A DNA stretch of 64,000 nucleotides, taken from Arthrobacter sp. S41 (lineage in GTDB: Bacteria > Actinomycetota > Actinomycetes > Actinomycetales > Micrococcaceae). The stretch's first letter is position 1; each line of letters opens with the position of its first letter. The stretch lies in NCBI RefSeq assembly GCF_004320535.1, contig NZ_SIHY01000001.1, positions 620,001 to 684,000 of the forward strand, in the 5' to 3' direction. Shown here piece after piece: positions 45,110 through 45,149 of the stretch. The notes under the pieces were generated by a model. The model saw only the letters and a program-made list of their open reading frames with translations, was not told the DNA's origin and did not search any database. Position numbers and translations under genes: made by a program.

Positions 45110-45149
45110 CCTCTCCCTTCTCCGCCTCACGGGACGGCATTTAAAGGAA
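45110..45149 (-). promoter_or_regulatory. PyrR-binding-type hairpin over the pyrR Shine-Dalgarno
   Basis: In minus-strand sense: UUCCUU, UAAAUG, stem CCGUC, hexaloop CCGUGA, stem GGCGG, AG, AAGGGA. The loop fits CNGNGA, the hexaloop of known PyrR-binding RNAs, and an internal bulge separates the upper and lower stems as in those sites. The lower stem pairs AAGGGA, which overlaps the pyrR ribosome binding site GGGAGAGG (45110-45117). PyrR bound to UMP would therefore block translation of pyrR and the coupled pyrB. Confidence 0.7.

Follow-up and report, generated by a model that had tools for sequence, protein, structure and literature searches.

A conserved PyrR-type hairpin overlapping the pyrR Shine-Dalgarno region, a probable translational switch of the pyrimidine operon in a Micrococcaceae genome

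The pyrimidine operon of the window (the whole 64,000-nucleotide stretch of DNA that was analysed) lies on the minus strand, where the order is nusB, an intrinsic terminator (45458-45419), pyrR, pyrB, pyrC, a gene for a small protein, carA, carB, and pyrF. The operon and its upstream boundary comprise the following features:

45419-45458, minus strand: very strong intrinsic terminator at the boundary between nusB and the pyr leader, a 17-bp stem followed by T5
45162-45167, minus strand: -10-like hexamer (TAATTT) of a predicted pyr promoter, proposed from clustering of such hexamers
44532-45101, minus strand: pyrR, start ATG 45101-45099; NCBIfam NF003547 at 261.8 bits against a cut-off of 230
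43573-44535, minus strand: pyrB, from reading frame and NCBIfam scan; ATGA overlap with pyrR at 44535-44532
42257-43561, minus strand: pyrC, from reading frame and NCBIfam scan; 11-nt gap after pyrB
41758-42264, minus strand: small protein between pyrC and carA, with ATG 42264 chosen as start; overlaps the end of pyrC and abuts carA
40588-41757, minus strand: carA, reading frame with start as listed and NCBIfam scan
37310-40588, minus strand: carB, named from position and sequence only; TAATG junction with carA
36475-37329, minus strand: pyrF, from reading frame and NCBIfam scan; overlaps the end of carB

The small frame between pyrC and carA, taken as 41758-42258, had no match in NCBIfam. With the listed starts, and ATG 42264 for the small protein, all junctions from pyrR to pyrF are overlaps, direct abutments, or an 11-nt gap, which makes translational coupling along the operon plausible; the ATGA overlap through which pyrB had been expected to follow pyrR is present at 44535-44532. 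The nusB terminator (45419-45458) isolates the pyr leader. The PyrR encoded in the window matches solved PyrR structures, and among the matches listed, its best match with a species name comes from Glutamicibacter sp. JC586 (94% identity), which places the source of the window in Glutamicibacter or very near to it.

The leader upstream of pyrR (UUCCUUUAAAUGCCGUCCCGUGAGGCGGAGAAGGGA) contains a PyrR-type hairpin at 45149-45114 on the minus strand, whose 3' end, read from the sequence, lies 12 nt before the pyrR ATG at 45101. Its parts, with the adjoining elements, are:

45153-45155, minus strand: 5' side (GCA) of an outer 3-bp extension in the minimum free energy fold
45144-45149, minus strand: 5' arm of the lower stem, UUCCUU, from sequence and fold; CCUUU is conserved in the leader alignment
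45133-45137, minus strand: 5' arm of the upper stem, CCGUC, placed by the RF00515 alignment and the leader alignments A1 and A2
45127-45132, minus strand: hexaloop CCGUGA (CNGNGA), the predicted PyrR contact; CNGNGA in 77 of 81 leaders
45122-45126, minus strand: 3' arm of the upper stem, GGCGG; upper-stem cells all paired in the family alignment
45114-45119, minus strand: 3' arm of the lower stem, AAGGGA, which also contributes to the predicted Shine-Dalgarno pairing according to the anti-SD duplex and the pairing probabilities
45107-45109, minus strand: 3' side (UGC) of the outer extension, pairing with GCA 45155-45153 in the minimum free energy fold
45107-45121, minus strand: Shine-Dalgarno region AGAAGGGAGAGGUGC, best anti-SD duplex -14.9 kcal/mol with 11 bases paired

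The stems, bulge, and hexaloop described in the initial annotation can be read directly off the minus strand, and the hairpin observation is confirmed. The lower stem UUCCUU/AAGGGA includes one U-G pair. CNGNGA is the hexaloop consensus for PyrR recognition; the window carries it as CCGUGA, closed by a C-G pair on a short upper stem, together with the internal bulge and the CCUU/AAGG lower stem of the PyrR binding loop. As expected of a PyrR-binding RNA, a pyr gene lies downstream and PyrR is encoded in the same genome. The proposed fold was reproduced in part, since unconstrained folding recovered the lower stem but, in the minimum-energy form, let the upper stem close a 9-nt loop instead of the hexaloop. 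The folding energy gave z = -1.48 for 60 nt (19 of 200 shuffles equal or better) and z = -1.71 for 121 nt (8 of 200 equal or better). This thermodynamic signal is weak and unremarkable, so that the case rests on comparison with relatives.

A scan of species genomes with the window PyrR yielded at least 568 relatives, the 80 best of which were retained as loci. When the search pattern allowed for a shortened loop, the element was found just upstream of pyrR in all 80, and a stricter pattern of stem plus loop was found in 75 of them. The 80 leaders and the window were aligned without reference to structure (alignment A1), and a 50-position covariance model (R1) was built from this alignment. At E 0.01 or better, R1 had exactly one match in 148 of 149 family genomes, and pyrR was found in the same 148; the exception, G070 (94% complete), had neither a hairpin match nor a detectable pyrR. 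In all 148 genomes the hairpin and pyrR lie on the same contig and strand, the hairpin preceding the beginning of the pyrR match by 8-112 nt (median 35). The hairpin is thus near-universal in the family, single-copy, and tied to pyrR. Of 246 genomes sampled across the phylum, 141 had an R1 match at E 0.01 or better (the weakest of these matches may be false), and 105 had none at that level. The 29 loci of the best phylum matches, the window excluded, are all located upstream of a PyrR reading frame, which was recognized by motif search in 24 loci, by a relaxed motif in four, and by reading in one.

Within the source genome, a single site stood out clearly with R1 (55.9 bits, E 1.8e-12). The R1 matches that came after it had E 1.2 (15.6 bits), which is chance level, and E 3.1, and the next-best RF00515 match had E 0.17; a second PyrR site in this genome was rejected on these grounds. 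The ten-base loop motif alone was also discarded as evidence, because its 88 occurrences in the source genome compare with 46 for the reversed control, and the motif is therefore uninformative without stems and position. RF00515 (PyrR binding site) was the top Rfam match in 44900-45500, spanning 45151-45042 on the minus strand with 39 bits (E 8e-4 for 601 nt), below its gathering cut-off of 54 bits. At the cut-off, RF00515 matched neither in the whole-window Rfam scan nor in any of the 20 related loci (out of 80) that were scanned, and the roughly 260 nt between the nusB terminator and pyrR had no match to any Rfam family. A weak RF00515 match is thin evidence by itself, as such matches (E up to 10) also occurred in 9 of 14 control genomes, in two of them above the cut-off.

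Compensatory changes in the stems were examined in a model-fitted alignment (A2) of 81 leaders, 69 of them distinct, in which 90.4% of stem cells pair. Fifty cells were changed on both sides; shuffles gave 17.6, and no slid control exceeded 24. Of 500 shuffles, 12 had at least as many pairs with a compensatory change and 52 at least as many further pair types, indicating that not every measure stands out. The excess of both-sided changes is not caused by model fitting, because A1, which was not fitted to the structure, likewise gave 50 such cells against 18.2 in shuffles (pairs with compensatory change reached by 45 of 500 shuffles, further pair types by 28 of 500). The outermost pair of the upper stem was found as CG, AU, GC, and UA. 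A set in which other classes are strongly represented (27 distinct rows) had 26 both-sided cells against 7.6 in shuffles, and the remaining two measures were reached by 6 and 1 of 500 shuffles. In Micrococcaceae (98 rows, 67 distinct), for which the initial annotation had proposed a covariation check, the upper stem is always paired and nearly invariant, compensatory change being confined to one pair, which switches from CG to UA in three distinct rows. The both-sided cells numbered 46 against 27.7 in shuffles, a modest excess, but two of the five measures did not rise above shuffles: of 500 shuffles, 293 had at least as many pairs with such change and 280 at least as many pair types. Compensatory changes are hence clear across the phylum and modest within the family.

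The hairpin bulge contains an in-frame ATG at 45138-45140, from which PyrR would be 13 residues longer. This ATG is present in the window and in one relative (L031) but absent from five others (L032-L036), and the longer protein was rejected. That the hairpin arose by chance, or belongs to the coding region of an extended PyrR with its start at ATG 45140, could draw on this in-frame codon and on the 19 of 200 shuffles that fold equally well or better; given the absence of the ATG from L032-L036 and the conservation of the hairpin with compensatory changes, we regard the chance of such an origin as practically negligible.

Loop variants were few. In four leaders from the 80 kept loci (L039, L041, L053, and L059, from a Schumannella MAG, two Herbiconiux, and a Microbacteriaceae bacterium), the hexaloop is one base shorter, reading CGAGA or CGGGA, with intact stems. 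The five-base loop is rare in the order-wide sample, where a pattern search found it in 1 of 396 genomes, itself 73% complete. In another leader (L086), CUGUGA is kept while the closing C-G pair is lost. Diverged lower stems or 5' spacers were observed in two Micrococcaceae genera, g7 (leaders L174, L176, L179, L180, and L181) and g26 (L175, L177, L178, L182, and L183); these leaders are among the lowest in R1 score (30.7-38.8 bits) and have kept the loop and the upper stem.

The same comparison bears on whether a hairpin of this kind could hide the Shine-Dalgarno sequence independently of any protein, as a thermometer or as a leader with fixed low initiation. Such a hairpin would agree with the folding that is predicted without protein. 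It would not account for the conservation of the unpaired loop bases (CNGNGA in 77 of 81 leaders), nor for one site per family genome that always precedes pyrR and is missing where pyrR was not found, and a protein-independent role thus seems extremely improbable.

The relation of the hairpin to the ribosome binding site was assessed in 81 leaders by pairing the 16S rRNA tail with the stretch between the upper stem and the start codon. For the start codon, an ATG 9-20 nt after AAGG was preferred, and otherwise the first in-frame start was taken. Under this rule, the distance from the lower-stem AAGG to the start codon is 10-19 nt in all 81 leaders (median 15) and 18 nt in the window. In every one of the 81 leaders, three or more of the five core bases in the 3' arm of the lower stem take part in the best anti-SD duplex. 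The 9 nt starting at AAGG hold a mean of 76% of the duplex bases, although this overlap is partly expected from closeness because the searched stretch is short. With a cruder script, the longest exact SD match was AAGGAGGU in 30 of 81 leaders.

The initial annotation had the lower stem take in the ribosome binding site of pyrR, and for the window this is only partly borne out. Seven of the 11 paired bases of the anti-SD duplex fall in the 9 nt starting at AAGG, and AAGGGA is predicted to be closed (unpaired probability at most 0.04 in the free fold and 0.06 with the hairpin forced), but the GAGG that follows the core stem on its 3' side stays mostly open (0.41-0.97 without and 0.79-0.96 with forcing). 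Since GAGG lies beyond the stem and is largely unpaired, the Shine-Dalgarno sequence is overlapped and not fully buried. The arm in the window thus consists of AAGGGA plus a separate purine block outside the core, while in many relatives AAGGAGGU fills the arm. Overlap between hairpin and Shine-Dalgarno sequence, as in the M. smegmatis type of switch, was found in all 81 leaders, and is partial in the window. Conservation of CCUU/AAGG alone does not prove that the Shine-Dalgarno sequence is hidden, because these motifs also belong to the attenuator-type Rfam consensus.

A link to mycobacteria is provided by the protein. The 141 phylum matches of R1 include six genomes from a single family (f6), and the loci from four of these combine the PyrR motif DDVLYSGRS or DDVLYTGRS with the same hairpin upstream. 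In one of them (L203), the hairpin is followed by AAGGAGGUC, and a 132-residue part of the PyrR has as its nearest PDB entries 5iao and 1w30, which we take to be Mycobacterium tuberculosis PyrR. The same element therefore occurs with a PyrR of mycobacterial type in four loci, with the protein comparison made for one, and the shared hairpin, the motifs, and the structure match tie the window element to the mycobacterial type by sequence. PyrR-dependent translational repression was reportedly described in Mycobacterium smegmatis by Fields and Switzer in 2007 (J Bacteriol 189:6236), and the pyr operon there is said by the same authors to begin with pyrR, to carry the PyrR loop at the ribosome-binding site, and to have no attenuator. 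The window shares all three with that switch, an operon led by pyrR, a loop at the ribosome site, and no predicted attenuator; the translational layout that had been likened to mycobacterial pyr operons is upheld by the same hairpin layout in the four loci. One study, citing Fields and Switzer 2007 among its sources, states that the pyrimidine operon is overexpressed in PyrR mutants (PMC10672894), and another describes PyrR binding to mRNA as enhanced by UMP and lowered by PRPP (PMC12369341). RF00515 was used for PyrR in a comparative study of RNA regulons (PMC3766115). No account of the present element beyond mycobacteria appeared among the literature matches listed, a coverage that leaves out most subscription journals.

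The initial annotation had denied the presence of an attenuator terminator, and in agreement, the only terminator-like site on the minus strand in 44000-46000 is the one at 45458-45419, with none predicted between the hairpin and pyrR; a Bacillus attenuator, i.e., a terminator hairpin with a U run before the gene, is not found there. Compared with RF00515, which is of the Bacillus type, the window shares the binding part (loop, upper stem, bulge, and CCUU/AAGG lower stem), while the 3' half of the model, comprising antiterminator and terminator, has no convincing counterpart and aligns poorly. Transcription attenuation in the Bacillus style, in which PyrR on the hairpin would favour a downstream terminator, could appeal to the alignment of the hairpin with the binding stem of RF00515, from which the model continues into a terminator-like 3' hairpin. 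This appears very unlikely, considering the interval without a terminator-like site and the short distance from AAGG to the start codon (10-19 nt in each of the 81 leaders), which cannot accommodate both an antiterminator and a terminator ahead of the gene. Attenuation might still act through Rho-dependent or intragenic termination. Predicted intrinsic terminators are, according to one study, fewest in Actinobacteria and certain atypical species (PMC2965389), which fits a translational mode and is no proof of it.

The hairpin may also lie close to the 5' end of the transcript. Hexamers of the form TANNNT, counted in a 5-nt bin 21-25 nt upstream of CTTT, gave 41 matches in the 80 leaders, whereas in 200 mononucleotide shuffles the best bin averaged 6.8 matches and never exceeded 13. 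These clustered -10-like hexamers suggest that transcription begins close to the hairpin, and the hexamer of the window (45167-45162) predicts a start near 45155, at the base of the outer stem. If so, the leader would contain the hairpin, the Shine-Dalgarno sequence, and little besides. PyrR might then act mainly on mRNA stability, with the clamped 5' hairpin or the untranslated message being cleaved or protected and translation affected secondarily. A hairpin almost at the 5' end, provided that the -10 assignment is right, would suit this explanation, which leaves the position of the lower stem in the Shine-Dalgarno region of 81 of 81 leaders unexplained; as the main effect we consider it very unlikely, and an effect on stability could act together with a translational block.

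Very probably, UMP-bound PyrR clamps the leader hairpin and blocks initiation at pyrR, and the effect is carried to pyrF by the close-packed genes. The translational switch read into this leader by the initial annotation is thus supported, on the strength of sequence comparison, and from it we infer PyrR binding, switching by UMP and PRPP, repression, and coupling along the operon. The pyr leader would consist of a single PyrR-binding hairpin, with the 3' arm of the lower stem forming part of the pyrR Shine-Dalgarno sequence. At high UMP, UMP-bound PyrR would dock on the CNGNGA loop and the upper stem and stabilise the hairpin, and the clamped hairpin would keep the 30S subunit off the pyrR start; the downstream genes would follow pyrR through their overlapping or nearly touching frames. 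At low UMP and high PRPP, PyrR would be released and the 30S subunit could open the stem, as the anti-SD duplex can compete with the bare hairpin. Because the hairpin is predicted to form without PyrR, the contribution of the protein would presumably be to make the hairpin more stable or to obstruct by its sheer bulk once bound.

This kind of switch is already known from M. smegmatis, and the element is ordinary but well supported. What the present analysis adds is its near-universality in the family, the single-copy link to pyrR, the covariation of the stems, the compact layout of promoter, hairpin, and Shine-Dalgarno sequence, and a gap in annotation: the Rfam PyrR model, whose second half is the attenuator, misses the element at the cut-off in the window and in 20 relatives, while a covariance model of the binding hairpin, which found the element in 148 of 149 family genomes, would permit systematic annotation. 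In broader terms, the odds appear about even that hairpins hiding the Shine-Dalgarno sequence under PyrR are the standing pyr control across Actinomycetota, including lineages outside the main class, in a compact form from near the transcription start, and that the Bacillus attenuator and this switch are two read-outs of one binding RNA. If true, the conserved AAGG arm would be a Shine-Dalgarno sequence here and an anti-antiterminator arm in the Bacillus attenuator, and the CGNGA loops of a few Microbacteriaceae would mean a shifted PyrR recognition there. For Glutamicibacter and its relatives, the finding defines a control element of pyrimidine synthesis that is concrete and open to testing, and it frames the question of how one protein-RNA contact came to serve two regulatory read-outs.
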